Below, in pieces: positions 1-32,469 of a stretch of 64,000 bases of DNA (its first letter is position 1; every line of letters starts with the position of its first letter). A model generated the notes under the pieces. That model ran no database searches. It was given only the letters and a program-made list of their open reading frames with translations, and was not told where the DNA came from. A program made the translations under genes and the position numbers. The stretch is from Diplolepis rosae (lineage: Eukaryota; Arthropoda; Insecta; Hymenoptera; Diplolepididae), in assembly GCA_030998225.1 (NCBI GenBank), contig JAPYXD010000608.1, forward strand, positions 7,470,501 through 7,534,500, written 5' to 3'.

Positions 1-103
1 GAGACTGTTAGCGTTGCTGCCACAGCGTACCTGCTATGCCGTCAGGCAGGTGTCGCATCTCTTCTCTTCAGTATCGGTGCGTGACAACTGATGTGACCGT
101 CTC
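1..103 (-). repeat. Inverted partial copy of the 6605-8637 unit
   Basis: This stretch matches the first 105 bases of the right-hand unit in inverse orientation, including the GACGGCATAGCAGGTACGCT segment. That segment carries the same GGTACGCTG string used as the loop of the iterated hairpins. Only the U3-like start is inside the window; its TATA box and hairpin portion would lie upstream of base 1. Confidence 0.8.
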
Positions 104-360
104 AACGTAACGTATTTATCAACTATCCATGAAAATTTCTCTCAATTATCATAAACTGAATATTCATTCCATACTCATTTGACAAAAAAAATAACAAAAA
201 AAAGAAAATTTTCCAAAATCGCTCAAATTCCTTTTTTTTATCACAAAATGCTTTAAGAATATATCATTGTTTTCATTATTTAGATTTTCATCAAAAATGT
301 TGTAGCAAAGTTGACATGACTTGACTCAATGTGAAATAATCGATAACGAATACACTACAT

Positions 361-882
361 GCCATCTGATCAAATTTGACCCGGACTGGTTGAAAAAACA
401 ACATTTTTATGTATTTTAATACAAATCTTTATTATCGCCTTCAAAATAGAATCCTTTTGAGCCAATACAACATGACGATTTTCAAGCACAATTTTTTTCA
501 CTTTTTCGATGTTATCGTCGTTAACAGAAGTGGATGGACGACTCGCATGAGTCAAGTTTTCTACGACCTCACGACCCTCACTGAATGATTTATACGACTC
601 AAATACTTGCGTTCTCTATAGAGTAGACTCCCAAAAACACTTCTGCAACATTTTCAATGATTCCGTAGCCGTAATTCCATTGGAAACACAAAATTTCAAG
701 CAAACTCGTTGTTCAATTTTTTTTCATGGTAAAAATTGCTAAACAAACTTTTCCCGTCGTAAACCAATGGCTGCCAAACATACACTAATGGACTTCTCCC
801 GCTCAAACTTCACACTTCACCTCTGTCAAAGAACAAGTGCGGTTTAAGTGGACCAGTCCGGATCAAATGTGATCAGATGGTA
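361..882 (-). mobile_element. mariner-like element, internal-deletion derivative with N-terminal transposase relic
   Basis: The ends at 361-390 and 853-880 are inverted copies of about 28 bp (CCATCTGATCA..GGACTGGT). On the minus strand, from about 730 down to 460, the translation shows the mariner/SETMAR-type N-terminal DNA-binding region: a helix-turn-helix reading EQRVCLKFCVSNG, then TQVFESYKSFSEGRE, then SRPSTSVNDDNIEKVKK. Stops and a frame change interrupt it. The catalytic DDE part is absent, so the copy could only have been moved by another element. It lies inside the 104-6604 interior and a TA is present at 881-882. Confidence 0.8.
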
Positions 883-1049
883 TGACAAAAATAAGACGTT
901 CAGAGACGTGGAGAAAAGAAGAATTAATTAAATGACTTAATTTGATAGTTGGGACTACTTAAAGATGGCGCTGAAAACCTTGCGTTAGCTTTGAAAAAAG
1001 GAAATTTAGCAAAAGCAACGAAGTCAAGTGTTTTCCAGAACAGAGAACA
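883..1049. other. Noncoding stretch
   Basis: AT-rich sequence between the mariner derivative and the first relic gene. I see no gene, hairpin or repeat match here. The same holds for 104-360, which is poly-A/T-rich and featureless. Confidence 0.5.
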
Positions 1050-1510
1050 GCATTTTCGAAAATAATTTCATCTCGGTCAAGAACTGTATTTAGTCTATCC
1101 CCAGTAAGAAGGTGGGCATTGAATGGCAATGAAATGTCAAAATCTGGAAAGAAACGGAATCGAGCATGAAACTTTTAAATGCCTCTCAATACTTAGGAAT
1201 TAAAATGCATTCAAAAGTCTTCTAAACGAAGCCTGCAGACCGTCATATTGCACAACACAAACTCATATGCATCGATACAAATAGCTTATTCAACAAAACT
1301 TGAAGAAGTTTACAGTAATATAAAAATTATCTTGGAAAAAATCGAATACAAACAACATAAATGGGAAATTTTTGCAGATTTCAAAGTACTTTCAATGCTT
1401 TTGAAATACAAATCAGGAAATACAACGTATCCTTGTTTCTTTTGCTCATGGGATAGCCGCACAGTGACCGACAAAAATAAATCTTGCCAAACGTATTTTT
1501 TTTAACCACA
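1050..1510 (+). pseudogene. Relic of a high-copy arthropod repeat protein (GDLKV..WDSR type), first part
   Basis: From about 1235 the frame reads VILHNTNSYASIQIAYS, then KLEEVYSNIKIILEKI, then WEIFADFKVLSMLLKYKSGN and YPCFFCSWDSR. This is the order and spacing of a very abundant uncharacterised protein family I know from insect genomes, where the central motif is usually W.ICGDLKV..LL and a C..C..WDSR. The family is repeat-encoded and its biochemical activity is not known to me. The frame closes at 1505 soon after WDSR, and a later part of the same family resumes at about 3581, so the gene has been split. Nearby upstream sequence is degraded. The family match rests on memory of motifs. Confidence 0.6.
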
Positions 1511-2081
1511 AAGAAACTCTAAATTATGTATTATAGTACTTTCTAGGCATCCCAATGAATGAGAATTTCATAATAAATGGGTTTTAAAATTGGTTTGTAG
1601 TAATGAAAAGCAATCACAAAGTAAGCATTTTTCAAACGCATCACATGGACAAAAATGAGGTTCTGTTTGAAAGACGTTATACTTTCTATTGGAATAATTT
1701 GAATAAAATATCGTATAAGCAAGTTAAAGCATACTATCGAAGGATTGGAAAATGAGTCTACTTAGTCCATTTCATGAGCTACAAATAAGATAATACGAAT
1801 CTACTTCCAACCCCTTTCTAATTGTGAACGCTGTCATGTTTAAAGAGATTATGAAAATCCCCGACAAGACGCGGTAAGAAAGGAAATATGTATAGTACAT
1901 AGTCTAGAGTAGACTGCGAGTACATAGAACTTTGATTCAGTTGCGTATTCCTGCGCTTTTTGGAAAAAAAGATTACATTTTTTTCAAAATTCATTTATTT
2001 ATGCATGTTTGCGATTGTTTTACCGATAACCTGCAAAGTTTTACACGTACCTCCAATAAAAATAGGTATTAGAACTCAAGT

Positions 2082-3580
2082 TTGATGTGCATTTTTACAA
2101 TAGCATCCAATATCGAATCAAGAAAATTTCAAAGAAAAGAACTGGTTGAGATATTGCGGAGATCAACTAAGCACGAATTTAAAAGTCTATGTGTAGATCT
2201 CATTGCTCAGATAAAAACTTTACTTCAATTTGAAGGAAGCGACGAAGAATTCAATAAAAATACAAGAAACAAAGATAATTTTTCACGTTTCACTTTTGAT
2301 CATTATAAAAGATGGCAGAAGTCGTCCCGAATACTAGAGAAGATTTTAGAAGATAATGATGAATGGTTGAATAATGAAATGACATTTTTTATCCAAATGC
2401 TTCAAACGGCCTTTATTGAATTAACTTCCTCAACCAAAAGGTCGTCTGAAAATGAGTTTTAGTGAAGGAAGCACCCGTACTAACTACAGAAAAGTTGAAG
2501 AGTTACGTTCATCCACCGACCGTGAACAAAATCTGCTTGCTGCTCAAGTTAGTTTGAGATTAGACAGAAATGAGACAGCAGCTAAAGTCATTCAACAATC
2601 TTCTCAAGGGCCAGAAGGGGAAGTGAGGAATAGTGAGGAAGGAAGTAGATCTAAGCCGAAACAGTGTGTGGAAGATGCACTTTCTATTATCATTGATGCA
2701 CATTTATCATAGGAGCAATACCCAGTTATCAAAAGGATAGTAAAATCCAAAAATATAAATATATTCCCTTCATACGATGATGTCTTGAAAGCTAAAAAAG
2801 AATGTCATTCTGATCCTAAAACCAACAGAATTTTGATACGAGTGCGGAAATAGAATTAAAAAGTTTAATGGATAAAACCGTTTAGAAATTTGAAGGAGAA
2901 TCTGATGGTCATACTTTTCCTTATGGAAACATGTTTCTAGCTGTTTGTGTACCATTACAATTAATATCAGGTAATGCTACTTGTGATGACAGAATAATAC
3001 TCTGACAGAAACCACGTCCATCCTCTACATGTTATTGTAAACCTATTTTTCTTTACTTCATGAAGGAAACTACAGAAAATACTCTAAAATTAAAAGAAAG
3101 GATTTACAAGCAAAGTCATGATCTACGTCCTTCTTTGTATGATATCAATGAAAACACGTTGCTGTAATTTATCATATATTATTTACAATGATAGATGAAA
3201 AGGTTTGCAATTCAATTACATCGACTACCAGTCAGGGGTGTGACATATGTGGCACTTAACCGAGGGGAATGAACAACATTGACTGTGTTCGTGGGACACT
3301 TATTGATATTTTTATATATAATATATTTTATAATTTTTTATATATTGAAGTTTGGTCTGTCGACTCTTCACACTTGGATACGGTTCTTTGAGTGCCTATT
3401 ACACGTACCTTGTAGGCTTCTGATCCAGAAATGGAAAGAGCGAGGAGATGGAGATAAGTTACTCTATCAAGTGATTTTTATTTGAAGAAGCTCAGGGAGC
3501 TTGTAACAAAGATTTCCAGGCTATTAGAGAGCATCATTCTCGAAAATTTTTGAGAAAAAACACCATTGAAGATGTGTTAC
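2082..3580 (+). pseudogene. RAG1/Transib-like DDE transposase relic (inferred), with stops and an internal deletion
   Basis: Decayed coding sequence in several frames. Two ORFs (2082-2462 and 2452-2712) overlap by 11 bases and look like one N-terminal region with a shift. Later pieces read YDDVLKAKKECHSD (2778), VPLQLISGNATCDDR (2950), MIDEKVCNSITSTTSQGCD followed by ICGT (3190), FGLSTLHTWIRFFE (3345) and EEAQGACNKDFQAIREHH (3487). These match, in order, an arthropod repeat family with a CxxC finger (C.ICG) and an acidic SEEA..A.NK motif. That motif resembles the neighbourhood of the last catalytic glutamate of RAG1/Transib enzymes. The stretch between the WIRFFE motif and EEAQ, roughly 190 residues in relatives, is missing. 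Stops occur at 2849, 3015 and 3260. The protein family is fairly clear; the RAG1 link is inference. Confidence 0.5.
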
Positions 3581-4065
3581 ATCCATTAGTAAAGACATCA
3601 AAAGTCCTCTTTCCATCTCGTCGTATTAATTTGAGTCTCATGAAATTGAAATTAGAGATATTTGATAGACCTTAAATTCGACAGCTATTAAAAGACGATG
3701 CTTTTGCAACTAAAATAACCGCAACTGAGAAAAAAGCATAGCTCTATTTCAAAGGTGTTGTTGAACGATTCCCGGTAAACTCTAAAAGTCCAGAGTGGAA
3801 AAAAAATATTTCGAGAATGGTCGATAGTTTCAAAAAATTGGAGTGTTTAATGAATTTGAAGCTCCATTCTATGGATTCTCTTCTTCAATACTTCCCTGAC
3901 AATCTTGGGTCTACAGTGAAAAACAGGGTCAAAGGTTCCATCGAAGTATTAAAGTGATGGAACAACGATATAAAGGAAGATGAGATCGAAATATGATGGC
4001 AGACTACTTGTTCGACGTTGAAAAGAGATTTGCCTGAGGAAAATGTTCAAAAAGGGAAATTCTGC
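3581..4065 (+). pseudogene. Relic of the WDSR-type repeat protein, C-terminal part
   Basis: Right after the RAG1-like piece the translation switches to the remainder of the family seen at 1050-1510: HPLVKTSKVLFPS, INLSLMKLK, then LKLHSMDSLLQYFPDNLG near 3870, and, after a frame change, RFHRSIKVMEQRYKGR, a TGA stop, and DRNMMADY (3935-4010). In relatives these are the PLV..K.LLPPLHIKLGLMK, ..HSHL.FFPENLGD and GERFHQDI..ME.RY.G.W...MMADY segments. So the gene is interrupted between WDSR and PLV by the 2082-3580 material. At least two stops and one frame change make it non-functional. Confidence 0.55.
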
Positions 4066-4104
4066 TACGAAGGTCTTTTGAATACAAAAGAGTACGTTAT
4101 AATG

Positions 4105-4480
4105 AAATGAAAATCTGTCCGCTTCGCGCTCCATCTTATACTCTTCGCATACATTCAAGTTTATTTCTTGTAATTTGATACTGAAGCTCAAGTCACTTTC
4201 ATAATATTGTAGACGTGATTTGCATTTTCTCACAGCTATTCAAGTACTATAATTTTGCATTTCAATTCTTATTACGTATCTCACATATGTTGGTTAAAAA
4301 GTGGTATTCTTGATTTGCAAAAGTGTTTTTGAAATCAAACCATCAAACATACAAGAAAAACATTATTTTTAATGAACAAAGTATTAAGCTGTCGAAAAAT
4401 AATACTTTTAATAATGTTTTTTGCAATAGAATTTTGTCTGACTATCGCAACCACTGCTGATACGAGCAACTAATATTTGC
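4105..4480 (+). repeat. R1 repeat, internally deleted copy
   Basis: Starts with AAAATCTGTCCGCTTCGCGCT, the same left end as the full R1 copies at 14222 and 43856. It then has the shared TTCGCATACATTCAAGTTTAT block and resumes with the TCTCACATATGTTGGTTAAA block near 4280. The GC-rich palindromic part and most of the middle are missing. The right limit is vague. Confidence 0.6.
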
Positions 4481-4992
4481 CGAGAAAGTGCAGTTCTCTA
4501 TTTTTCAACCAAAAACAAACTCAAAACTATGAGGGAAACTACATTAAGAACCACATGGGAGGCTATGTTGTAATTTGAGCCCAGATCATATAAATGTAGT
4601 TTCTCATGCGGCTTTGTATGCTCAATGTCTTTTATATTCTCATCATATGAGGAGGTGCACTCAGAAAAAAGATTTGATTGAATGAAACAAAATAATTTGC
4701 TTGGAAGAATTTTCTTGATTAAAAAAAAAGAAAAATTTTGCAAAACATGCATTAAAGAAGTACTTCGAGTCCCTGTAAAGCGGTAGTAAGGACGTCCATT
4801 TACGACCGGCGTTTTCATATTGTATCTGTTTTCGTTCCTTAGATCCTACTTTCGTTCCTCACGTCCGCTGAACAGATATATATTATTTAAATTAAATAAA
4901 ATTTGTTTAATTTAAACAAAATATCTTTGGGCTAAAATATTATTCGTTCGAATCAAATAAATTTTTTTTCAAAACAAATTATTGCATTCGTA
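4481..4992. other. Noncoding stretch
   Basis: No gene recognised. The open frames here lack codon character and known motifs. There is a run of alternating TTTAAAT/ATTTAAA palindromes at 4885-4925. Confidence 0.5.
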
Positions 4993-6513
4993 CAAGGTGT
5001 CCCAAAAGTAGTTGCTGAAACCAATCGACTGTCATTATTTAGTGTTTGCAGTTTTTCAGAAAACATGAATAGCGTTTGAAAGAGAAAAGATGCAAGTTTT
5101 ATTTGAGTATATGTACAAACGGGCGCTTTTGTATAGAGATATTTCATTAATTAAAAAAAGTGAAACATTTACAGAGGTCAACGGTAAATATTTACAAAAT
5201 GAGAACCATTAGAGCCAGAACAAAATTCAATCCTGTTACGAAAACTGTTAAAAACTTTTTCTAAAATCTCGCTTGTGATGCCATTCACGGTTTTCTTAAT
5301 TGTGCGCACCAAATCATCTACAGTTTGAGGACTCTCAGCATAGCAATGATCTTTGATATAGCCCCAAAGGAAAAAATCACAAGGGTTCAAATACGGTGAA
5401 TATGGTGGCCATTCTAATCCCCCTCGTGCAAATTTAGGGTACCCAAGACCGATGACTTGAGCATCATAAACTTTATGTAGTGCCTCAAAAACCTTCTAGG
5501 TCCGGTGTGGCACCGCTCCGTCTTGCATGAAGTGAAAATTCTTCACCAAACCTCTTTTCTTTGTATAAGGAAAGAATTTAGTTTCCAGAAGATTTTTGTA
5601 AGTCCTGGCAGTGACCGAAGATTCCAAAAATTGAAGGTAAATTTCTTTTATAGAGATTGCTGCCCATGGTGGAACCTTCTATGGGTGCAAAGCTTTTGAT
5701 TTGGAGACATTTGGATTTTCTGATCCCCAAAATCGATAATTTTGCTTGTTAACATAGCCATTCAAATAAAAATATGCTTCGTCTGTAAAACTGATCAATT
5801 TTTCATCAAGTTCTCTGTCTTTAAACATTCCAGTTATCGTTTTGCAAGATTTAACACGTCCCATAGAACGTTCGGATAACAGCTGAAGAGAATTTATTTT
5901 ATACGGATGCATGTTCAAAAAATGTTTTAAAATCCTATGTAGTGATGTTTTAGATATTTTCAAGGCTTGAGCAGCTTTCCGAATTGCCGCATTTGGATTA
6001 ACCTTGAAATAGTCTTTAATTCTCTCGACATTTTCATCTGTGGTCACTGATACGGGTCGGCCTGATACATCGTGTCTGCGGTCTTGTTGAGTTCCATATT
6101 CGATGAAATTATCTATAACTCTATAAAAAATATAATAAAAAGACACTTATGTAACAATAAAAATGACAAAAAGTGTCTTGCCACTGGCTGACGCAATACA
6201 TGTAAATATGTGCATAATACGTTCTCGCCTTTCAAGAGTATTTTCGCTCGCAACTCTGTGAGTATTCCATACTTAGCACGAAATCCCCTATAAGCATCAC
6301 TATACACTTTTCCTCTAGAAAATAGGCACTCAGGATAAACTTTTTCTTCCGTCGTAAGGTCACTCATCTTGACTCAAACTTTGTTGCTTCTGAGAAGGCT
6401 AGGATAAAACTGCAGGGTTTCAGGTATGCTAACCTCAAAAGTACAGCCACTACTTAAATTGTAAAGGGGGAAAATATACATTTAGTTTCAGCAACTCGTT
6501 TTGGGACTCTCTG
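4993..6513 (-). mobile_element. Tc1/mariner-superfamily element, complete ends, decayed transposase
   Basis: The left end (AGGTGTCCCAAAAGTAGTTG, then CTGAAAC) and the right end (GTTTCAGCAACTCGTTTTGG then GACTCTCT) are inverted repeats of about 28 bp. TA flanks both sides (4991-4992 and 6514-6515), the target site of this superfamily. Length is 1521 bp, normal for the family. It sits inside the 104-6604 interior, about 90 bp from the right inverted arm. Confidence 0.88.
5178..6367 (-). pseudogene. Tc1/mariner-type transposase pseudogene
   Basis: Read on the minus strand. N-terminus at 6367 is MSDLTTEEKVYPECLFSRGK, the helix-turn-helix start of a common insect transposase family. After a frame change the ORF 6146-5679 carries GRPVSVTTDENVERIKDYF, a second DNA-binding part (ISKTSLHRILKH) and the first catalytic region SFTDEAYFYLNGYVNKQN followed by FWGSENP. 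A last frame, 5390-5178, has NPCDFFLWGYIKDHCY, the region of the third catalytic aspartate, and the C-terminus. Sequence around 5505-5680 is frame-broken, so the middle catalytic region is not readable in one frame. The product would have cut and pasted the element at TA sites; this copy cannot. Confidence 0.85.
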
Positions 6514-6758
6514 TATATGGTCAAAGATACTATTTATTTGATTTAAGATTGTATGTAAAAAAATCGATCTCTGGTAGACTTTTACGGAAAACGGAAAAAA
6601 CTTTGAGACGGTCACATCAGCTGTCACGCACCACTACTAAAGGCAAGAGATGCGACACCTGCCTGACGGCATAGCAGGTACGCTGTGGCAGCAACTCTAA
6701 CAGTCTCCGCTAGGGTCGCACCGCGACTCTGTCCACAGTCAACCCGAACCCGTCAGTC

Positions 6759-6795
6759 TATAAGCAGGCGTAATAGATCTCCCAGAATCACTTCG
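6759..6795 (+). promoter_or_regulatory. Core promoter: TATA box plus initiator
   Basis: TATAAG at 6759-6764 is followed by TCACTT with its A at 6790, so the TATA box begins 31 bases upstream of the initiator A, the canonical insect spacing. It lies upstream of the hairpin array and would drive transcription through it. Confidence 0.45.
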
Positions 6796-6879
6796 GTCAG
6801 ACTCTCAGTCTGGAATTCTGCCGTCTAGAAGAAGCAGCCAAAGGGCCATCGAGGAAAGAGAATAGTTGGTGATTATTTT

Positions 6880-7220
6880 GCTGAGTGACTCTAGGTACGC
6901 TGCCTAGGCTCTAGAGCACTCATTACATTTTAAAATTTTCTTTAAATTATACTACTCTCTGGGTACGCTGCCCAGGCTCCAGAAAGTAGTAAAAACGCAA
7001 TATATCTTTGGGTACGCCACCTAGGCTCCTCAGATACACCGCATTTATCTTATCTTGCATCCCTTTCTGGGTACGCTCCCAGGCTCTAGAAAGAGATCAA
7101 GTGGCAACGTACATTGTTGGGCACGTCACCCAGGCTCCAATAAATGACGTGCTAAAGTCTTTTCTTTTTTTTGTAACTCTCACTCTGGGCACGCTGCCCA
7201 GGCTCCAGTGTGAGAGCGTC
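6880..7220 (+). repeat. Six iterated stem-loops with shared core and covarying stems
   Basis: A core close to GGGTACGCTGCCCAGGCTC occurs at about 6892, 6960, 7010, 7069, 7120 and 7186. Flanks differ in every unit but stay complementary: TGAGTG/CACTCA with CTCTAG/CTAGAG; ACTACT/AGTAGT with TCTGG/CCAGA; ATCT/AGAT; CTTTCT/AGAAAG; ACGT/ACGT with CATT/AATG and TTGG/CCAA; CTCTCAC/GTGTGAGAG. Inside, an inner hairpin (CTGGG..CCCAG) competes for the same 5' arm as the outer stem, so each unit can fold in two exclusive ways. Spacing is 50-70 bp. Kept pairing with changed sequence argues for structure-level selection or structure-templated origin. Confidence 0.8.
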
Positions 7221-7420
7221 TTTCAACCAAGTGAGCTTAGTCTATTCGATAAAACTGGTGATACGGCTACATTTAATTTCGGGGTTCACCCCTATAGCGA
7301 GAGCAGCGCTATCTGCTCACCTTCCACAAACTATATCAGTGTGTACTACGAAACTGCATTACCGACGGTAAAACTCAACGATAAAAGTGAGACTGATCTG
7401 ACTTAGATTATTCATACCTC

Positions 7421-8420
7421 GATACTAGCGTCATCCGTAGGAACTATTAGCAAAACTGTTAGAAGGATATACTTGTTTCTATTGATGAATTAGTTTTTAA
7501 GAGAACCGACTGAGTAGGATAATCCTTGATCTTATTGAAATACCAGCGCCACCTACATTATTGGATACTGCTTAAAACATATATTTCTTTTCTGTTATTT
7601 TGCAGGCGTGGGCGACCGAGCAACACGAATGATTTCTATTATTCTGTTTCAGCTTCGCGATACCAGCGACATCTATTGTTATAAGTGGATAAAGATTGTT
7701 AGGAATATTTTCTTTAGTAATTTCAAAGGTGTAAGGGCAATAGTACAACACGAGTGATTGAAATTATCTCTATGTATTAATTGTATTAGTGCGGCGTCAG
7801 CGCCATCTACATTTACGAATCATTAAGTTTGTTTATAATATTTTTCCTTGTTAATTTGGAAGCACATTGGCGATTGCGCAACGCTAGTGACTCAAATTAT
7901 TTCATTTATTATCGCGACGTCAGCGCTACCTATGATTACTAATTAATAAAAACTGTTTAAAACACATTTCGCTAACCATTTCCGAAATGCGCTAATTACC
8001 TAGTAACGCGAGTAATTGATATTATTTTACATTGCGACATCAGCGCCATCTATGTTCACAAATTGTTACAATTTGCTTATGGTTTGTTTCTCTAGTTGTC
8101 TTGGAAGTACGTTAGTGATCGTGCAACGCTAGTCATTTAAACTATCCACATTAGTTATCGCGACACCGGCGCCCTCTACGTATACGAAGTTTTAAAGTTG
8201 CTTAAGGTATGTTTCTATGATTATCACATTAGTTATCGCGACACCGGTACCATCTACGTGTACAAAGTGTTAAAGATAGCTTAAGATATGTTTCTATGAT
8301 TATCACATTAGTTATCGCGACACTGGCGCCATCTACGTGTACAAATTGTTAATGATTGCTTAAGATATGTTTCTATGATTATCACCTATTTTATCGCGAC
8401 ACCGGCGCTATTAAACCCTT
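7421..8420 (+). repeat. About 120-bp tandem repeat array with a 79-bp contracted subfamily
   Basis: A CGCGACACCGGCGCCATCTA-like block recurs at about 7421, 7541, 7661, 7796, 7918, 8038, 8161, 8239, 8318 and 8398. The first seven are spaced 120-135 bp apart. The last intervals are 78-80 bp because the segment with GGAAGTACGTTAGTGATCGT and its CAACGC neighbour has been lost. The 79-bp units are the most alike, so they are the newest amplification. Several units keep GCGCCATCTA, whose complement TAGATGGCGC resembles the CTCF core. Confidence 0.85.
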
Positions 8421-8587
8421 TCGTAATACTCAGCTTCAGTGCCGTTAGCGCCACTCAGTATTAGTCCATAAACAACGGGCTGTGACACTTAAGGTGCAAG
8501 GTGACGTCACACCTAACAAGCGCCATCAGCCGTCGAAATAGGAATCAAAGTTACTTAGGTAACTCTCCGATGTACATAGATTTAAAA

Positions 8588-8593
8588 AATAAA
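8588..8593 (+). terminator. Polyadenylation signal AATAAA
   Basis: AATAAA lies 44 bases before the end of the unit, followed by a T-rich stretch. It is consistent with transcripts starting near 6790 and ending just after the satellite array. Confidence 0.4.
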
Positions 8594-8637
8594 GACTACT
8601 TTATTACATTAAAAGACTCCTACTAATTCTTCCACAC

Positions 8638-9007
8638 CTTTGGGTCCACAAATATTATTTAAATAAACTAAATTAAATTAAGGACAATATCTTGCTTTTA
8701 TAGCAAATATCTACTAACAAACAATCAGACATACGTATTATCTAGTGTTTTATTATCCAATGAAAACGAGAGTCATGAGGCCATAGACCAATCACAGCTC
8801 ATCATACATTTGTGAAATACTCCTCGTTAAAAAGAGTAATAATTGTTAAAATTATCGGAAATCTGCAAATAACTAACAAAATCTCCCTTCTCACGGCTTC
8901 CGAGTACCTTCCGATTCCAATAATCCCTTGAAGACAATAATACTGACGAAAAATCGGAGTCCTTGCGATTCCTCACATTTTCATCAACGTACAATTCAAA
9001 ATAGTAC
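8638..9007. other. Noncoding stretch with CCAAT motifs
   Basis: No coding signal that I trust. ATCCAATGA (8757) and GACCAATCA (8786) are two CCAAT-type motifs 30 bp apart. They could belong to a promoter, but no gene follows. Confidence 0.4.
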
Positions 9008-9536
9008 ATTACGTGCCCAGGCGCAGAATGAGGGTCATTGCGGGACGAGCGACAATGCTCGCAGGAGATCGAAGCTAAGGCGTAGTCGAGGCAAAGCCGA
9101 GACGAAGCCGAAGCGCGATCAGTCCTGCGAGCATTGTCGCTCGTCCCGCTATGACCCGAATTGTGTGCATTGGCATGTATTCTATTTTATGTGACTTCGG
9201 TGCATATACGAGTTTTTATGCGTACACTGGAATCTAAACTAGTATTGTAGTTGTTTGCGGCGCTAGTCATTACACTTGATATGTCACGACTAGTCCCGGC
9301 CATTTTGATTTTATCGATCTTGTGTAGTAGTAATGGATTTTAGTAGACGCATGCGCAGTTCAAATGTACAAAGCTTTGCCAGTAAGATGCTAACGCTGTA
9401 CGAAGAAAAAGAAGAATAAGAAGGATTGAGCTTCATTTCATGGCTATGGGCGCATGCGCAGTTCAGTTTTTACATTTCATTCTTTTCTGGCGAAATGTAC
9501 TACATTGCCCTACTGTTAACTGTAGCGAAAAAACGA
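9008..9536 (+). mobile_element. R2 promoter-like mobile repeat, copy 1
   Basis: Matches the inverted stretch 19495-19996 over its whole length, from GTGCCCAGGCGCAGAATGAG to the TGTAGCG..AAAAAC end. The second copy interrupts an R1 repeat, so R2 is mobile. It has a long hairpin at one end and, further in, two GCATGCGCAGTTCA blocks (about 9350 and 9451) and a GGCCATTTTG (9299). Coding potential is low. It looks like a non-autonomous element carrying a CpG-containing promoter-like segment. Confidence 0.7.
9032..9157. repeat. Long imperfect hairpin inside R2
   Basis: The arms GGGTCAT.GCGGGACGAGCG followed by ACAATGCTCGCAGGA pair with their complement at 9119-9157, about 40 bp of stem. The loop is a degenerate run of GAAGCC/GAGAC units. 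The copy at 19855-19975 keeps both arms with more mismatches. Confidence 0.8.
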
Positions 9537-10744
9537 GTTTGCGCGCCGATGGCACATAAAATCACTATCCATACTTTCTTACGTGAAAAGTTTGTTCGTG
9601 GATTTTTCACAAACAAATTCATTTTTATGATAATAAAAAAATCATTTTGCTGATAATTTATATATAATCATTAAACTTATCACAGTATTCATATGTTATA
9701 AGTATAAAGCGATCATAAAACAATAAATAATCAATTTCCATTACTTTTTGATAATAATGTTCTCGAAGAATTGAACAGTATTCAGCACTAGCGGAAGATG
9801 CGCTCAACGCCGTCGATCGAAGATCGTAATTCTACGCGCATCACTTTACGAAAAAATTCATATTTCGGGCAATTTAATGATCTAATGATACGTTTGCGTA
9901 ATTTTTTCAGAATTTTTCCTGGTTTCAGTTTTTAAATAATTGAAAAACAACAAACACGTTTTTTTATTGTTTATCCCATAAATTTTTAAATAATGCATGC
10001 AAAAATTTGAAATTTTGGGATTCTTTATTATTTATGTTAATCTATCAACTCTTAACATTTCAAGTAAGTCGGAATGAATGAAAACATGAATTCCTAAACC
10101 CGTCCGATTTGGCATGGAACGGCCCATATACAGGTATAGAAAAAAGATTGAATTTTATAGAAGCTTACGTATATAATTCTTTAATCAGTGTAGCAGATGA
10201 AGCGTCAATTTAACTCCAGTCCATTAAAACTCATAATATCAATGTTGGAATTGTAGAAAAAAACCGTGCAAAATATTTTTGCGCCTGTCTGCAACATGAT
10301 TGATGAGAAAAAGTACTACTCTTTGTAAAATCATACAAATTTTTACTGTAATAGTAGAACCGTCGCCTTTTTGGGACAATAGGAACTTCTGGCCTCACCT
10401 TTCTTGGTGTTTGTCGGGAATTAAGGTCTGGTTTCATTTGCTTCCGCTTTCAGACATGCGAGACACGCGATTCCAAGGTCATTTTTTATCTGAGTTTATC
10501 GTTTCTTCATTAGTAGGTACCTCTTACCGAGTGAAAGGTATTGCTTATTTCTCGTACTCTGAAATTTTTCTCCAGAGCCTTTCAACTTTGTCTGAGATTA
10601 CCAAACGCTTTTTTAAACAAAATTTTCAACTTTCTGCAAAAACATTAAGTAAGACGTGTTGAATGTTTTCTAATAGGACTATTCGAATTTGATCAATTTA
10701 ATTGTAGGCACTACTCTTAGCTCCACCCAGAAATGACGTGAACG
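9537..10744. other. Noncoding stretch
   Basis: AT-rich with no repeat match found. A 120-codon plus-strand frame (10300-10662) and an overlapping minus frame show no known motif, and I treat both as chance. Confidence 0.45.
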
Positions 10745-10965
10745 TAGTTGTCGTCAGTTCCCATCGCCTTTCACCATCGGGGTGCTTGTTTTCGATGAAA
10801 CCCTTCGCATCTCGTTATCGATGTGCCTGTTTCCGATGAATCCCCTCACATCTCATCGGTATATTTCCGGCGAATCCCCTCTTATCTCACCATCAAAGGA
10901 CTGCTTTCTGGAAAATCTCCTTGCCTCTTATCATCGGGATGCTTACTCCCGATGAAAATTTCACA
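10745..10965 (+). repeat. Degenerate minisatellite of about 40-45 bp
   Basis: Five units built on CACCATCGGGGTGCTTGTTT followed by CCGATGAATCCCCT recur from about 10762 to 10960, with substitutions and small gaps. The short frame across it (10823-11137) is a by-product of the repeat. Confidence 0.65.
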
Positions 10966-10974
10966 ACAAGTGCT

Positions 10975-11280
10975 CAAAATAGTGCTCGACCAGTTCGATG
11001 CATTTGTTGATTCAAGCTTTGAAAAATTCTACACGACGTTGATGTGTGTTTGGCGTCGTTTGGAGACAAGCAGTCTCGATACGCTCGATTATGTTATCAT
11101 GAGATGTTGGCACTTCTTGATTAACTTAACTCTTTAAATAACCCCACAAATAGAAATCCTGCGACCTGGCAGTCCAATTTACCGGACCACCTCTACCGAT
11201 CCAGTGACCATTGAATTTGCGATTCAGAACTTCCTGCGCGATTTTCGAATAATGTGCGGGACAACCGTCGTATTGAAACT
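10975..11280 (-). pseudogene. C-terminal fragment of a Tc1/mariner-type transposase
   Basis: On the minus strand the frame reads FQYDGCPAHYSKIAQEVLNR, then WIGRGGPVNWTARSQD and FYLWGYLKS, a stop, and QEVPTSHDNIIERI. This contains the second catalytic aspartate region (QYDGCPAHY) and the third (SQDFYLWGYLK). The N-terminal half is absent and the 5' break at 11280 is abrupt. It is a different subfamily from 5178-6367 (QDFYLWGY versus CDFFLWGY). No inverted ends found. Confidence 0.85.
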
Positions 11281-11505
11281 ACATGTTCTGTCACAATCCC
11301 AAGATTAGGTCTACAAGCAATATTGGAAGTTGATTTACAAGAAAGTTATGATAAATATTCTGAAAATCATTGCCATGAAGTTCTTAGAACAGCGAAGTGT
11401 GGAAGGGATGATATTTATTACGTTTTAATACCTTCCGAACACTGGTTAGACATTCCGGAACTGCAACTTAGTTGTCGAGGACTAGTTACGATGCGGTCTC
11501 GGTAA
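11254..11505 (+). CDS. Unrecognised ORF fragment, 83 codons
   Basis: From 11281, where the transposase match ends, the plus frame is open to 11505 and has a protein-like mix of residues (SYDKYSENHCHEVLRTAKC, then YYVLIPSEHWLDIPELQLSC). The part before 11281 overlaps the transposase and is a shadow. I recognise no family. It might be a stray exon or another repeat's coding fragment; there is no clear splice signal or start. Confidence 0.25.
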   Translation: MRDNRRIETTCSVTIPRLGLQAILEVDLQESYDKYSENHCHEVLRTAKCGRDDIYYVLIPSEHWLDIPELQLSCRGLVTMRSR

Positions 11506-11639
11506 GAAAGCGGAACTAGGAAAAAAGTCGGGCAAGAATGTCCTATGGTTCCACACAGGGTATATTAGGGAGGGGAATAAATTTCTGGTTACCGAGAAAA
11601 GTTGTGGAGTGGTGTGGGTTTTCTCTTTTTTTTAAAGAA

Positions 11640-12330
11640 AGGAAGGAGCGACTGACAATTATCTTAAAAATTGTTTATTATTCTGCTTTACAGCTTATAC
11701 GAGTGCGGTCAAATAGTAGGTGGCTGTCTAGGTGCTGCGTGGCTTACTCCGCTTCAAAGTCGGCTGCGCTGAGCTAGGTCGGTGGTGATGCCGGTTATGA
11801 GGCAGCTGTGGTGGTCGACGTTGAGGAGAGACGAGTGGCAGACGAGCGGTGGAAATCAGGGAGGCGCCCCCGGGGTGGGTGGTGAGGCTGCCGAGGTGGT
11901 TGCCGGTGTTGACTGAGTGCTTCTGCCAGGTTGAAGTTCCTTAGGCGTCGGGTAGTAGGCTGGCTCGATGAGTTCCGCCTGCGTGGTGGCGGCCGCATCG
12001 TACCCTGGTCTGGTCGGACTGCACCCTGGCGGTGCCTCGCTGGCTTCCCTTGCCAACCTCTCGGCCATCTCATTTCGGCATGGGCGAGACTCCCTCCTGG
12101 CCCTGAACGGGCACTTCTTCTTGACTTTCTAAGATGAATTGAGTAATTTCAGTAATGGTATCTTTCGGTTCCACGAGAAGATACGTTGCTGATAACTGCC
12201 TGGGTACCCCCGGGCAAGCGTCAGGATAGGACAACTCCAATTCCCCCAAGTGAGTTGGAGGTTTGAACATGAGTAGATCCTATCGTACTTATCCCTGAGT
12301 GGATCACGGGGGTACAAATGACCTCCCACT
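11640..12330 (-). other. GC-rich minus-strand unit ending in AATAAA, possible retroelement 3' end
   Basis: This block is far more GC-rich than its surroundings. Read on the minus strand, two adjoining frames (12270-12070 and 12068-11856) give proline- and glutamine-rich protein-like sequence such as KPPTHLGELELSYPDACPG and EPKDTITEITQFILESQEE. They are followed by noncoding sequence with AATAATAAAC near 11672 and a pyrimidine-rich tail. It may be the last coding part plus 3' UTR or LTR of a retroelement, or a host gene's last exon. I do not recognise the protein. Confidence 0.35.
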
Positions 12331-13590
12331 CATACACGCACACATTCAGAATTGAATGTTTTTCCATTTAAATGGTTTTGAAGTGAACGGAATAAATGAT
12401 AATCGGATGGTGCAACGTCAGGACTATACTATATTATACTATAAGGTTTGTAAATTTTATTTCTGGTCTTAACTAACCAATTATATTACTCTATTATAGC
12501 CTATACTAATGAATACTAGGATATCAACACTTATATAATAAGTATTTACATGAATATATAATAAACATAGTATGTTCAGTAATTAGTGAGCCCCTTCCGT
12601 CCAGCATGCTGTTTACTTTATTTAATTAATCTTTGTTTCCTTTTCAGATTCAGCAGGGAATAGGGATCGCGGCGTGATCGTCACGTCACATTATAAACAA
12701 AGAAATGTTTTTACAAATTAAATTTTCACTTTTTCAGTATTTATGACTACTTTTGTCTCCTAAATTATTTCAAAATAGTAAGCAGTTATTATTTATAAGT
12801 GAAGCTAAATATTCTTTTTCAAGCAATACATGTTAACATTGAGTCCCTTTTCTCATAATTATTCCATTCCTTGTAGAAGAAACGGATTAAAGTTAGAACC
12901 ACCTAAAAAAAATTAAATTTCTCTGAATTAAGTCTTCTTTCATTTATCCTTACGTAATTTTTATGTTAAAATTGCAGAAGTAATCAACAAAACGCGTTTT
13001 CCATTTTTTCAGAAAAAGAGCGAAAACACTGAAAACACAAAGTTTAAAAAATTCATAACTCCGAAGTTTATGAAGATATAACAAGGCCCGCCAAGCTCTA
13101 ATGCAAATGGTAGCGACAAAGTTTTTGCTACCAGGTTCTGTCCTGGAGCGTCGATGGCGCCACATGCGCCACTAACATTAGTGAACGCTGTGTCACTGAT
13201 GAGCCAGTAAGTATAAAACACGTGTAAATTGAAAAAAAGGTTTGTAATATTGAAAAGATAAAGTAGCTTTGAGTTTTGAGATTTTCTTAGCCTCTCTTTT
13301 ACAGAAGCAAAGAAGTGTATCATATTTGAAAAATCATTGCTTCTTATCACTAATAACGTTATACTTCTCTTGTGAAAAGGAACATATTTCTTCTGTACAA
13401 ATTTGTTTAATTTAAGATTTAAAATTTATTTGAGAAGAAGAATTTTGGCTATTCCTAACCTATCTTTTGTGAGCAATATGAACAACAGATTAGAAATTAT
13501 ATCTAATTATAGTAGTTTTTTTTAAGTGGAAATAATTTTCGTAATGTTTTCATTTATAATAGGAATATAAAAAATTATGTTTCAGACAAA
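12331..13590. other. Noncoding stretch
   Basis: AT-rich. An island at 13130-13200 has GATGGCGCCACATGCGCCAC, again CTCF-core-like, next to a possible 5' region of the THAP exon that follows. The 113-codon minus frame 13009-13350 has no recognisable domain and looks like chance. A TTTCAG acceptor-like site directly precedes 13586. Confidence 0.4.
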
Positions 13591-13834
13591 TATGGGGAAA
13601 AGATGTGCAGTCCTCTTTTGACAATCAACGAAAGGACCTTTTTTCACATTTCCTCATGGTTCCAGGGACAAAGATCGTTGTTTGCAATGGGTTTCAGCTT
13701 GTGGAAATCCTTCTCTGCTTAAAATCCCTTTTGACAAATTAAAAAATAAGACTTTATGTAAAAAGCACTTTCCCGTTAAGTTCTTTTATTTTCAAAAGGC
13801 TAAGTAGATCTGCGATACCTACTTTAAAACTACC
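13591..13834 (+). pseudogene. THAP zinc-finger exon, dead
   Basis: Starts MGKRCAVLF, then a TGA, then QSTKGPFFTFPHGSRDKDR, QWVSACGNPSLLKIPF and KNKTLCKKHFPVKFF. This is the C2CH THAP layout: Cys at residue 5, a CX2H pair (CKKH) about 55 residues on, and the FP, W and final hydrophobic positions. The first stop sits at the spot of the second zinc cysteine (CX4C). A second stop follows at 13805. The exon ends at CCAG/GTAACC and is preceded by TTTCAG, so it was spliced. THAP domains bind DNA in P-element transposases and host factors. No matching downstream exons are seen on this strand. Confidence 0.75.
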
Positions 13835-14221
13835 AGGTAACCTCCTTCACTATTATGAATCCTAATTATTAATTAATTTGTCACCTGAAAATTAGTTCAT
13901 TGTATTCCACTTGGAAATTTTTGTTGTGGAGTTAAAACTTCCGCTTGATCTAAAGGCTTACCATGAAAACTGTAACTTGGAGGAAACTCAATATCAATTT
14001 GACATAGCGACGGAAACTTTAATGAAGAAATGCGAGTTAGCGATGTGCCAGTATTTTCAAATTATACAATATTATAAATATATTTATTTACTACTTTGTA
14101 GTAACGCTTGTTAGTAAATTGTAATTATCTTTTGTTTTAAATGAACCCTCGAAGGAAAATAGGGATGGTTTGTTAGTTGATGATAAAAATGTAATTCATT
14201 TATCGACAATTTAACGAAGAA
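13835..14221. other. Noncoding stretch
   Basis: No gene or repeat recognised. The 67-codon frame at 13911-14114 has no known motif. Confidence 0.4.
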
Positions 14222-16456: not shown

Positions 16457-18945
16457 TTAATTTGCATTCGCCGATTTCTTTTTTGAATAACGTGTTCCAC
16501 TTGCGTAAATTGTTTCCATTAAACAGTCACGTTCAGGTGGTAGATCAAAACCTAGTTTCAGTTTACGCAAAAAGTCAAAATAATATTGACTAATGCTACC
16601 AACGTAATTGTTAATTACTATATTTTTTAATCTTCCAACGTGTTCACATTGTTCGAACTGAAATTGAAGTGTCTCCATCAGATACGTTTTTATTTTCGTT
16701 GTAAAGTTATCATATTGAGACACTATCGGAAAATAGTGCAAAGAATCGTTGGCGATATGCATTGCGGAATGATAAAGGTTTGAAACTCTGGAAAAAGGTT
16801 CACAAGCTCATCTTTCACACCCTAAAAGCAGATTCTTAGTGCAGGTTGAGCAATCTATATAAGAATCGTTCAGCATTTTCTTTTGAAATATGTCGTTTAT
16901 AATTTCGGTAGCAGAATTGGTCAAGGGCTTTTGAGAATCGAAGTCATTTAGAAGCGCTGGTAAATCCCATACTTTAGGAGAGGATAGATTATGTGGCACA
17001 TGGTTCATGAGAGCTCGAATGTTGACGAGAAATCCAGATGACAAACTATCTTCGCAGTTAGTGCCTCTTACATTATTTTGCACCACACTGTTGACCAGCA
17101 AACTTTTAAAATAATCTTTAAAAGCTGCAGTCGTTGGTTTTGTATTTCGTGCACCATGCTGCCTAATTTGTCCAAAGAAATTTTCTATAGGGTCTTGATT
17201 AAACATGCGACCGGAAAACCTTAGAAAACCATGCTCCTTCATCTTCTTCCTGAGAACTTTAAAACTTTTCAGAGTGTGCACGAAATTGTTCACAACGTTC
17301 GGCCTTTCTTTCGCTTTTGGAGTATTTTTTATGAATTCCATATTTTCGAACAAAACAATGGCCTTGTCCCACAGTTCTTCGTACGGACACTCACCTGAAT
17401 TGGGAATAAGAGTTTTGTAAATGGACTCTTCTTCTCCATCCAGGTTAATTCGTATCTGAGTAAACTTTTTCTCGCCGTTCATACTATCGAAGATATTGTC
17501 GACAATATGAAACAAGTACCTCGTGTCTTCCTCTTCCGGTTTCATCTCCAAAGTTTTGTCTGGATTCTTTTTCATGCTTCTGCACATATTGATCAATATG
17601 GATGCAGTTGTATGGCTAAAAACACTTTTACACAATTGTACTCGCATTTTTTGTTCATTGATTGGATGTATATTAGCCTCCGATAATTTCCTGAACAATC
17701 GAACCATACCGCCGTATTTGTCTATTGTAAATGCTCTTTCTAAATGAGTCCAAGAAGCTTTTCCATTTTTGCCTTTCCACATGGACAGCAAATATTTTGT
17801 TATAAGGTTATTCCTTAAACATTTCAAGGGGTGAGGATAATCAAACAAAGTGACAATTTCACTATCATATAACTATTGTGTTTTTGCAATAATTCTTGTC
17901 CTTCAAAGCATTGTTCTTAGACTCTTTTAGTAATTCTTTCATAGCTTTCTCATTCGTGGCAACTTGATCGCAGACGGACGCAACGAAGTAAATCCGATTC
18001 CATGCAGACGTCGAACCACCTCTGTATACATATTCTTTATCTCTGGAACACTTGATGATCCTTTGCAGAAAGAAAAAACAAGGGCCTGCGTCCATGGCTT
18101 TTTCTTGTTCTTAGGGTTTATACCCTTTGCCAGCCATACAGTGGCATGATCCGCAAGTAGGGGTTTCCGTTCAGTTCCATTGTCTACATATCCTTCGACC
18201 TTATCCGTCTTTTCGTCAAATAAAATGGATACATCTATCTCCACGTCGTCACACATCAAACTGCACAATCGGTCTGTTGGGTCTTTCATCCGTTTTCTTT
18301 GCAATTCTAGGCTTTCGAAAATGGAATCGCAAAGCCCTGGTTCCAAAGATATTTGCGAGAAGATTTTTCTTATCGATTCTGCACTAGGTAGGCAAAATAT
18401 ATTTGCCAAATACCTGTAAGCAGCCGCACTTCTCTTATAAAGGGAAAAACGAATAATTTGTCATCTAAAGTGAACCTCCTGGCAAACTTCTTTTTGTTCG
18501 CATTCCGAAGATGACACTGTACAATGTTGCGCGCTTGTGGAGTGAAATCATTCACGAGATTTATGCTTCCGGAATCGAAAATTTTCTCAGCTCGTTGCAA
18601 TCTTTGTTTCAAATTTTCATTCTTATTCCATGCATCACTGGTTTCTTTCGTAAGAAAAGTTATAGAATTGTGAATATTTTGGTCTCGTGTGGAAAGATTA
18701 TTTCTCCGACTCACTCCGAAAATTGTAAGAAGCGACCCTAAACAGACAAATATGTGTTTATTAGCTGGTGCATATTCCATTTTAATATAATAAAGAAAAC
18801 TGTAATAATAAATTAATTAAATTGAAGTAATTTTAGTATCTACATGTAACCCTTACGCCTCTTCGGAACACATTCTCTTGGTGTTGATTTTTTTTTCCTG
18901 TAACCTTTGGTGTCACTTTAGGCGACTTTATGGTAAAATCATCTA
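16457..18945 (-). pseudogene. P-element-type (THAP9-like) transposase, lightly damaged
   Basis: Minus strand. A short upstream exon (about 18945-18863, DDFTIKSPKVTPKVTGKKNQ, ended by GTAAGG) and the main body from about 18740 downward. Motifs of the P superfamily: CLPSAESIRKIF, DRLCSLMCDDVEIDVSILFD (first catalytic region), GYVDNGTE, ADHATVWLAKGIN, the SVCDQVATN motif, FDYPHPLKCLRNNLI, and late RMFNQDPIENFFGQIRQHG, the QDP.EN.FG.IR signature. The C-terminus runs to 16457. Lesions: shifts near 18452, 17990 and 17880 and one in-frame TGA at 16807. No THAP exon is found upstream on this strand. The product would excise and insert P-type elements with 8-bp duplications. Inverted ends not located. 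Confidence 0.88.
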
Positions 18946-30180: not shown

Positions 30181-30258
30181 TGCATGTTCCATTCAAAAGA
30201 AGTTACAAATTGGCCATCCGGGTTTTTCCTCAGAACTATCGAGAAAACAGAAGGAGCT

Positions 30259-32469
30259 ATGGCCTCCAAATCAAACAGATATAGTGAACTGTCTTGGCGA
30301 CAAAAAAGAAAACGTATGGCTCAGATTGAACGAAACAGGTTAGCGGCTCTCGACACAACTGATTCCAATGATTCAAATGAGCTGGATCAGCATCACATAC
30401 AATCTGAATCGAATGAGTCATTGCAGCCCCACGCTGAATCTGATTCGGATGATTCTTCAAACAACAGTCACCCTGCATCTCGTTCTACCGAAGATTCCTC
30501 TTCTGAATTATCATTTGATGACGCAGCAACTGTTACAAACCCAGAACCAGTTGCTGGTAGCATTAATAATAGAGTTACGGATGACAATGAAAACTCAGAT
30601 GCTTCAACCGAAATCGAAGAAAACAATGAAGCAGAGGTCCTTCCCAATCAATTCTTACAAGGAAGATTAACTTTGAGGAATATGTGTTTATCTGTAAATT
30701 TAAATCACGTACAGGTCAAACGCTTACTGAGAACGTTAAGAAATGTGCCATTCAATTTACATTACTTGCCGAAAGATCCTAGAACTCTCCTCGAAACTCC
30801 TACTGTAGTTGTAAAAAACATTGTTCAAAACGTTGCTGGAGGCAGATACTTGCATTTCGGGTTCAAACTTCTATTGCAAAGAAAATTAGAGAGCGTTCCT
30901 GATGATTTGTTGCCTGATCGTATTGAAATTGATTTTAGCACTGACGGTGGTAGGGTTTTCAGCAGTACTTTGCAGCAATTCTGGCCAATTCAATTCAGAA
31001 TTTATAATGTGGCGCCAAAAAAACCAATAATAGCTGGTTGCTATCTTGGTCACAAGAAGCCATCAAATGCATTCGATTTTCTAAATCCACTCGTCACTGA
31101 GGTAGTCGAACTCATAGAGCAGGATGGTATAGATGTGTGAGGCAGGCTGTTGCCTTTGCACATTAGATGTTTTATTGCTGATGCCCCCGCTCGGGCTTTC
31201 GTTTTGAATCATTATGGACACAATGCACCTTATGCTTGTTCTAAGTGCAAAGTTGAGGGTCATTACAGCAGTGTTCCCAACTTCGAACGTACGAGAGTTT
31301 TCACTGGCAAAGGTCGTCAACAAAGAACTGACGATGAGTATCGCGCAGTTTTAGATGAGGATCACCATAAAGGACCAAGTCCGCTTAGTAGGATCATGGG
31401 GCTGGTTACTCAAGTGCCGTTTGAGGTAATGCACCTTATTTACAATGGTGTTCTGAAAAGATTACTTGAAGCTCAAATCAATGGTTCTTATGGGTTCCGG
31501 CGGTTAAATGCAAGAAAAATGAACATTCTCGTCAGTAGATTGTCCTCGTTAGAATGCTATTGTCCTTCTGAATTTAATCGCCGTCCTTTGAAGTTGTCTC
31601 TTTTCAATCTTTACAAGGCAACTATGTTTCGACAGTTGTTACTTTATACTTGCCCTGCTGTTTTTTGTGACGTTTTCTCACCTCCTTACTACCTTCATTT
31701 TGTGCTGCTTCATTTTATCATCCGGATTCTCAGTGCCAAAAATATTCAAGATGACCTTTTGGTCTATTGCAAAAACGCGATGGTAATTTTCATTGAAGGT
31801 TCAGAGGAACTTTATAAAGAGAATATCATGTCGTATAATTTACATGGGCTATTGCATGTTGTCGATGACGTGCAAAAATTGGGGAACATCGAATCGTACA
31901 GTGCTTTTTGCTATGAAAACAATATGAGAGAATTCACAAGTCAAATCCGTAAGCCAGGAGCTGTTCTCGAACAATATTACAATAGGTTCCACGAAAAAAA
32001 CAATTTGGCCTTAGTTCACGAAATTGACGATCACAATATAAATGCATCACAGCAACATGTCGAAGGACCTCTGTTAGATCTCTTACATGCACGTCGATGT
32101 GTTCAATTTAAAAAATTACAAGTTGGTGCCATTACATTCGATACGACTCAACGCAACAATTGTTGCATTCTCAGAAATTTAGATATATGCCTTATTCGCA
32201 ACATCATTCATTTCGAAGGAAATACATATTTGATTGTCAATGCATTTACACATCGAAATTCATTTTATGAATTTGGTTACGCCTCCGACATTGCAGGTGC
32301 GTATTACTGTAAGAACATATCGAACTACATAAGAGCTGTAAATTTGCAAGACGTCAAAGCAAAATGTTACGTGATGCCTAAATGGAAGAAAGCTGAAGGG
32401 AGAGAAGAAATTGAAGAAGAACATGAATTCATATGTGCGGAGTTACTTACACCGTTTATTTTACCGTGA
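30259..32469 (+). pseudogene. CACTA/TNP2-like transposase with one in-frame TGA
   Basis: Start chosen at MASKSNRYSELSWRQKRKRM; the frame is open upstream to 30184. Residues about 1-140 are acidic and serine-rich. A conserved part then starts: EIDFSTDGGRVFSSTLQQFW, LPLHIRCFIADAPARAFVLN, an ACSKCKVEGHY zinc-ribbon-like CX2C, MHLIYNGVLKRLL, KATMFRQLLLYTCPAVF and YNLHGLLHVVDDVQKLG then FCYENNMREF. This order is that of the animal CACTA/TNP2-like (DUF4218-related) transposases. The single lesion is TGA at 31138-31140 between DV and GRLLPLH. Both sides are in the same frame, 736 codons in all, so a one-base CGA-to-TGA change is a simple explanation. It ends in TGA at 32467. Confidence 0.8.

Follow-up and report, generated by a model that had tools for sequence, protein, structure and literature searches.

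At positions 6882 to 7216 of the window, by which we mean the whole 64,000-nt stretch of Diplolepis rosae DNA analyzed here, six hairpins follow one another on the plus strand. They share one conserved loop, their stems are unrelated to each other, and pairing occurs within each unit. What kind of element shows such an organization, and at what level would it act? A first-pass annotation had noticed six stem-loops with a common core and had listed among their possible functions a protein-binding RNA array, a packaging or replication signal, a two-state switch, a self-processing RNA, and a DNA cruciform array; the location of the array in the long terminal repeat (LTR) of a retrotransposon was missed.

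The hairpin array and its retrotransposon

Unit 1 spans positions 6882 to 6922 (loop, 6895 to 6910), unit 2 positions 6950 to 6991 (loop, 6963 to 6978), unit 3 positions 7003 to 7036 (loop, 7012 to 7027; stem TATCT/AGATA plus an internal loop), unit 4 positions 7059 to 7097 (a 15-nt loop, 7071 to 7085), unit 5 positions 7107 to 7150 (loop, 7121 to 7136), and unit 6 positions 7177 to 7216 (loop, 7189 to 7204), all on the plus strand. The 3' arm of unit 5 contains an AATAAA (7139 to 7144), which is reminiscent of a poly(A) hairpin. With up to 3 mismatches, the core had 5 matches in the window and none in 100 shuffles. When the 64-kb window was searched with a covariance model trained on 45 units, only the six array units were recovered at E values up to 1 (4.7e-10 to 3.1e-06 for these units, five of which belonged to the training set of the model).

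As judged from homology and element organization, the array sits in an LTR that belongs to a Ty3/gypsy-type retrotransposon. This LTR (6604 to 8689, plus strand) starts with TGAGACGG and was delimited by BLAST homology to fetched loci; the comparison of window positions 1 to 14000 with 20 such loci placed the start of the repeat at 6603/6604 and its end at 8688. Relative to the copy at locus L057 (3516 to 5442), the window LTR is without the last ~15 nt. Paired repeats were observed at L063 (98.7% identity over 1070 nt) and, in the subfamily of the window, at L056/L057 (99.2% over 791 nt). The repeats begin with TGA(G/A)ACGG after a purine tract, and the L063 repeat ends with ..GAACTCTCTCA, followed by a PBS-like TGGCGCCCGAACAGGGAC, which we take to be a tRNA-Lys-type primer site. 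The L063 repeats enclose a gag-like open reading frame (ORF), pol, and a third, small ORF, and L056/L057 are organized alike; the gag assignment was made mainly by position (Retrotrans_gag at an E value of only 0.3 in Pfam). In the pieces submitted to Pfam, RVT_1 was matched at 3.5e-05 (24 bits, below the curated cut-off) and rve, in a later ORF, at 1.5e-12. The reverse transcriptase (RT) had 187 homologues; among the 120 listed, the first named were hymenopteran (Orussus, Trichogramma), followed by other arthropods and other animals, and those listed carry PF00078, many of them also PF00665. In summary, paired direct repeats flank gag-pol, RT precedes integrase, and a PBS-like site and a purine tract are present, as is characteristic of the Ty3/gypsy type. 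In viral contigs, the search for relatives of the element RT gave 3 pattern-matching stretches, none of which was confirmed.

A second repeat array is present in the LTR (window 7540 to 8410; L057 4300 to 5150; L063 LTRs), with a GCGACAYCRGCGCCATCTA-like unit, a period of 79 in part, and related repeats in the diverged LTRs of another subfamily (F2, below). Its core, AGCGCCATCTA, presumably resembles the insect CTCF motif. The 5' end of another copy of the array-bearing LTR occupies window positions 1 to 105 in the opposite orientation (minus strand); its array lies just beyond the window, with core matches at C313:7470105 and 7470213. The window also contains other mobile-element genes, at 16808 to 18409 (minus), 50500 to 52846 (plus), 60821 to 61351 (minus), and 5679 to 6146 (minus). 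They comprise TNP-like transposase domains, a further retroelement whose domains are SAP, CCHC, and RT, an ORF of the DUF4817 helix-turn-helix type, and a fragment resembling mariner (recognized by eye, without a Pfam match). Look-alike ORF sets at window 30184 to 32469 (plus) and L056 1486 to 2901 (plus), also recognized by eye and without a Pfam match, share the motifs DxPAR.., YAC.KC.V.G, and MHLLY.G.. and may represent an unannotated transposase family.

Genome-wide occurrence

At up to 2 mismatches, the core occurred at least 395 times in the 758-Mb genome and not at all in the reversed control; a looser 16-mer gave at least 1007 genome matches versus 197 in the control. Several LTR types carry the array, namely, the window type with 6 units (F1), the L063 type with 9 units (F2), the L066/L065 type, whose pieces of roughly 500 bp contained 7 and 5 units (F3), and a further type with 4 units at L020. 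The stems at other loci differ greatly, examples being GATTGGT/GCCAATC, GAGAGAT/ATCTCTC, and CTTGTTTTCTGG/CCAGAAGACAAG. Two copies have deletions ending in loops (L045 at 4404 and L059 at 4452), which fuse a left arm and a right arm from different units; template switching would be expected to leave such junctions. The core was also matched once each in 13 stretches of viral contigs, which scored at most 20 bits with the covariance model and were judged to be chance matches, the covariance E value of 0.0049 having come from a set preselected by the core.

A small bulged head on freely variable stems

The part that is conserved across the units comprises 16 nt (GYACGCYRYYYAGGCT). The core had been reported earlier as 19 nt long; its conservation was borne out, and its extent had to be shortened, the longer version having included stem bases. 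The flanking GG/CC represents closing pairs, which in other units are U.G, A-U, C-G, or others. The refined motif consists of a variable stem, a YAC bulge, a 3-bp GCY/RGC stem, a loop of roughly 5 nt, and a U, giving a head with the layout YAC (bulge), GCY:RGC, RYYYA, U. As an alternative to the YAC bulge, the same bases can be read as a GY bulge and a bulged C separated by an A-U pair. The YAC bulge with a G1.U16 pair is therefore one description, and A3-U16 fits slightly better because 3 of the 45 units change to C3-G16; the A3-U16 pairing raised the covariation score (see below) to 0.492. Among 133 units, positions 3 and 16 were A-U in 114, C-G in 8, A.G in 6, and others in 5.

The GCY/RGC inner stem was paired in 98.5% of the cells of the 45-unit alignment, with variation on one side only, and RNAalifold, when run unaided, predicted the identical head and stem (8 pairs). 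The loop above the inner stem usually has 5 nt, with 4 in window unit 4 and 6 to 7 in some others, and a 3-bp inner stem is still possible in the units listed with loops of 4 to 7 nt. The outer stems, of about 5 to 12 bp, vary freely. Single-sequence thermodynamics alone backs head formation poorly: of the six window units, only units 2 and 3 showed the head in the minimum free energy (MFE) structure of the whole array, as did 4 of the 9 L063 units, and the inner-pair probabilities for window units 1 to 6 were about 0.45, 0.77, 0.99, 0.3, 0.06, and 0.10.

In agreement with the initial statement that no named RNA family has this core, the window had no match in Rfam 15 at the gathering score, and at an E value of up to 5 there were only two weak snoRNA matches, both below their cut-offs and both located on the minus strand elsewhere than in the array. 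A tRNA identity for the array was considered and rejected. The motif fits no family among those tested. Cis-acting RNAs of retroelements are a known kind; in the libraries searched, we found no earlier case of a small bulged hairpin with such a sequence being repeated in a Ty3-type LTR. No description of the array was found in the literature searched (mostly titles and starts of abstracts), in which the loop 13-mers had a sole text match, to a paper unrelated by title.

Stem arms covary

In the window array, the natural pairing of left and right arms was the best of all 720 possible arrangements, with a summed duplex energy of -75.7 as compared to a permuted mean of -35.1. The same arm-swap analysis of the 9 units of L063 gave -86.5 versus a mean of -34.0, and none of 40000 random arrangements reached the observed sum. 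For the other loci, the respective observed sum was attained by 31 of 5040 arrangements in L066 (7 units), 2 of 120 in L065 (5 units), and 1 of 24 in L020 (4 units). When the three loop-adjacent bases were left out, the corresponding values were 1/720 for the window, 0/40000 for L063, 67/5040 for L066, 2/120 for L065, and 4/24 for L020.

For a broader comparison, the 45 units were chosen by the loop alone, near-identical arms being dropped (45 kept of 199); a separate list, limited to units whose arms paired at 4 or more of 5 bases (28 kept of 195), was avoided for this test. The covariation score was 0.471, whereas shuffled arms reached 0.191 ± 0.017 (0 of 500 as high; this control ignores relatedness among units) and slid arms at most 0.260; the proportion of paired cells was 79.6% versus 62.4%. 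Copies with nonpairing arms had been named as the observation that would speak against covarying stems. Among 133 distinct units (of 206), picked by loop and neighborhood, 94 paired at 5 or more of 6 arm positions, whereas this applied to 8.7% of 11698 combinations of unrelated units. A coarser permutation over 11 merged consensus types was moderately significant only (385 of 100000) because one cluster merged 86 of the 133 units. To our knowledge, such strong multicopy covariation of an unnamed RNA motif in animal retrotransposon LTRs is unusual.

Loops are less variable than spacers

Across 16 F1 LTR copies, the number of differences per site was 0.019 in the loops, 0.057 in the stem arms, 0.106 in the spacers, and 0.131 upstream, so that loops vary about 5-fold less than spacers. 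This comparison of 17 loci left out L045 (internal deletion) and L053 (other subfamily); since L056 and L057 are the two LTRs of one element, the figures were also computed without L057. Because the copies were found through exact cores, the fairer measure comes from units 1, 3, and 5, whose cores deviate from the search pattern; their loop divergence was 0.000, 0.029, and 0.045, respectively. In 12 F2 copies, spacers differed at 0.312, loops at 0.023 to 0.217, and arms at 0.062 to 0.211. In five F2 units (A, B, D, E, and G), loops differed as much as the arms or more, and the pooled value for loops E, F, and H, in which the next base is off the search pattern, was 0.094. The loops look selected: head sequence and stem pairing are kept, and the stem sequence is free.

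Position in the transcript and strand

All 9 LTRs that were aligned have an unchanged CTATAA box, which in the window LTR occupies positions 6758 to 6763 (plus strand). In the three LTRs measured, the box is at LTR position 154-155 and the first loops begin at 264 to 295, that is, 110 to 140 nt downstream. This TATA-like box suggests a transcription start near 6790. An AATAAA near the 3' end of the LTR, a probable poly(A) signal, is present in the window (8588 to 8593, plus strand), L057, and L063; the L057 and window LTRs have further AATAAA sequences upstream of it. A start near 6790 and an end near the 3' AATAAA would place the array in R, about 80 to 110 nt from the predicted RNA start, and it would accordingly be copied at both ends of the RNA. 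If transcription started later, the array would still be carried in the 3' end of the RNA through the 3' LTR.

An element that functions as RNA should accept G.U more readily than A.C. Pair 7-13 was U.G in 28 of the 45 units, C-G in 16, U-A in 1, and never C.A. Clear strand asymmetry was seen at this pair only: G.U and A.C cluster events numbered 27 versus 19 in the outer stems and 3 versus 4 at inner pairs 5-15 and 6-14. The sense fold had the lower energy in 32 of the 45 units and the antisense fold in 13. Taken together, this strand evidence favors sense RNA; it is modest and not decisive. A genome-wide wobble count for a single pattern, the T6 variant, gave 6 matches versus 1 in the control.

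A candidate docking site for a protein

A head whose sequence is preserved on stems that preserve pairing and are free in sequence is the signature of a protein-recognized hairpin. We consider it somewhat more probable than its opposite that the array is a multivalent, protein-binding cis-acting RNA element in the LTR that serves the export or packaging of unspliced RNA, which retains the protein-binding array and the packaging or replication signal of the first-pass annotation as the best class. Transcription from near 6790 to the 3' AATAAA of the LTR would put the array at both ends of this RNA, each unit would offer a stem bearing a small bulged and looped head, and six to nine copies would make the docking site multivalent. 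The docking protein would most likely be Gag, the product of the third ORF (ORF3), or a host RNA-binding protein, and docking would lead to the export or packaging of unspliced RNA. It is from the hairpin and element sequences that we infer RNA-level action, a binding protein, and a role in export or packaging. A simple-pattern search for a CCHC knuckle in L056 and L063 gave no match.

In both full elements, L056 and L063, a sequence resembling a splice acceptor precedes a third ORF region. This accessory ORF3 (L056 8838 to 9464; L063 1115 to 1582, minus strand) encodes 208 aa in L056 and has relatives in other assemblies (6 database relatives among 119 candidates). No Pfam domain was matched, the best E values being 0.099 and 0.16, below the cut-offs. 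An alignment of 7 sequences, some of them partial, contained 23 invariant columns and basic patches (the RPQIRRIKRIPP region); the structure prediction was uninformative (mean pLDDT of 59). In L056, a polypyrimidine tract ending in CTAG directly precedes the ORF3 ATG. The same CTAG tract is found in L063 before a stretch matching the start of ORF3, the listed open ORF beginning further down, and L063 has a donor-like GAG|GTTAG site before gag. Given the acceptor-like tract and this donor-like site, ORF3 is probably made from spliced RNA, in which case the unspliced RNA may need help in leaving the nucleus. That the ORF3 product binds the array as a Rev-like partner is a speculative guess. A complete circuit of the Tat/TAR or Rev/RRE kind that arose independently, in which the spliced ORF3 product binds the heads, multimerizes along the array, and exports or activates unspliced RNA, strikes us as rather doubtful. 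If true, an insect Ty3/gypsy-type retrotransposon would have invented retroviral-style posttranscriptional control independently. The array might reveal the way in which nonretroviral elements label their unspliced RNA, and the compact hairpin could serve as a query for other genomes and as bait for its binding protein.

Other explanations

The array might instead act as DNA, its 16-nt loop being bound by a transcription factor or insulator protein and its palindromic arms being secondary or permitting cruciforms. A promoter-near array in an LTR fits enhancers or insulators, the strand asymmetry is modest, and further downstream the same LTR contains another repeat array, whose core is GCGCCATCTA. 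However, a protein that binds double strands would not require arms that change in sequence yet stay paired, the frequent U.G and absent C.A at pair 7-13 are tolerated by the sense strand only, and the sense fold is the lower in energy in most of the 45 units. We therefore hold a DNA-level element to be unlikely, and the DNA cruciform array suggested initially is less likely than a protein-binding RNA. Quite unlikely, in our view, is a function in RNA-RNA contacts, by which the loops would pair mutually or with another RNA (kissing, dimerization, or template-switch guidance). The CCYAGG of the loop is self-complementary when Y is T, and the L045 and L059 deletions have their end points in loops, but this self-complementarity is not conserved (CCCAGG, TCCAGG, and CTTAGG occur), and GYAC and GCY, which lie outside CCYAGG, are also strongly conserved.

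The two-state switch, in which the outer stem of each unit would alternate with an inner GGG/CCC hairpin, would fit the RNAfold MFE structures of window units 1, 4, and 6, which prefer the inner hairpin. Across the 45 units, however, the alternative hairpin shows no covariation (score of 0.234 versus 0.252 shuffled), with columns 12-22 unpaired in 19 of 45 and columns 10-24 in 20 of 45, and we consider the switch very unlikely. If the units were functionless remnants, left by local duplication and by template switching that forms palindromes, this would explain why they are paralogous and why ordinary tandem repeats also occur in the LTR; it would not explain that loops are less variable than spacers in two subfamilies or that the stems have diverged yet remain paired, which makes this origin highly improbable. 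Hammerheads occur in retrozyme LTRs, and a small conserved core with variable stems in an LTR recalls such elements. A new self-cleaving ribozyme in tandem is nevertheless extremely improbable, and the earlier suggestion of a self-processing RNA was not sustained: no Rfam self-cleaving family matches, a bulge plus pentaloop is very small, and cleavage at each unit would destroy the genome RNA. A twister-sister-like ribozyme was rejected, as the layout given in the part of the description available (PMC11620745), in which a CA cleavage site and a pair of internal loops lie between two stems, was not seen by eye and Rfam gave no match.

Comparison with known systems

The preferred reading, a protein-binding RNA array, invites comparison with several retroviral and retrotransposon RNAs. 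In the hairpin of lentiviral TAR, located near the start of the LTR-derived RNA, a short upper stem with an apical loop stands above a 5'-side bulge. The array head shares these three features according to the consensus fold and the pair counts (in single-sequence folds, the shape appears in 2 of 6 window units only), and the array would likewise lie near the start of the LTR-derived RNA if the start predicted here is correct. Binding by an element-encoded arginine-rich protein is a mark of TAR, Rev/RRE, and the Rex response element; in the present element, it is ORF3 that has basic patches. Unlike TAR, the array has several copies, another sequence, a 3-bp upper stem, a loop of ~5 nt, and no Rfam match, and we know of no Tat homologue for its element. 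The MPMV constitutive transport element, which we take to be the NXF1-binding structure referred to below, presumably has repeated internal-loop motifs that are read by a protein. Structured RNA and repeated motifs are common to both, whereas the array is made of many independent hairpins and has no Rfam match.

Cer1, an LTR retrotransposon of Caenorhabditis elegans, requires the spliced accessory protein CERV for the export of its genomic RNA, according to the available part of the report, which also mentions an NXF1-binding structure (PMC10309623). When passages of its main text were searched for a response element, a stem-loop, or an inverted repeat, none came up, and the word "hairpin" occurs once, for a protein fold (PMC10309623). 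The likeness to our element is that of an LTR retrotransposon with a spliced accessory protein, the splicing of ORF3 being only predicted here. The Rex response element of HTLV, as described in the available part of PMC3504254, is a structured RNA in the LTR (U3/R or R/U5) that is carried by the viral RNA. It resembles the array in being an LTR-located structured RNA of an element with an accessory ORF, and it differs in being one structure of 226 to 254 nt (PMC3504254), whereas the LTR studied here carries a row of separate copies of a small hairpin.
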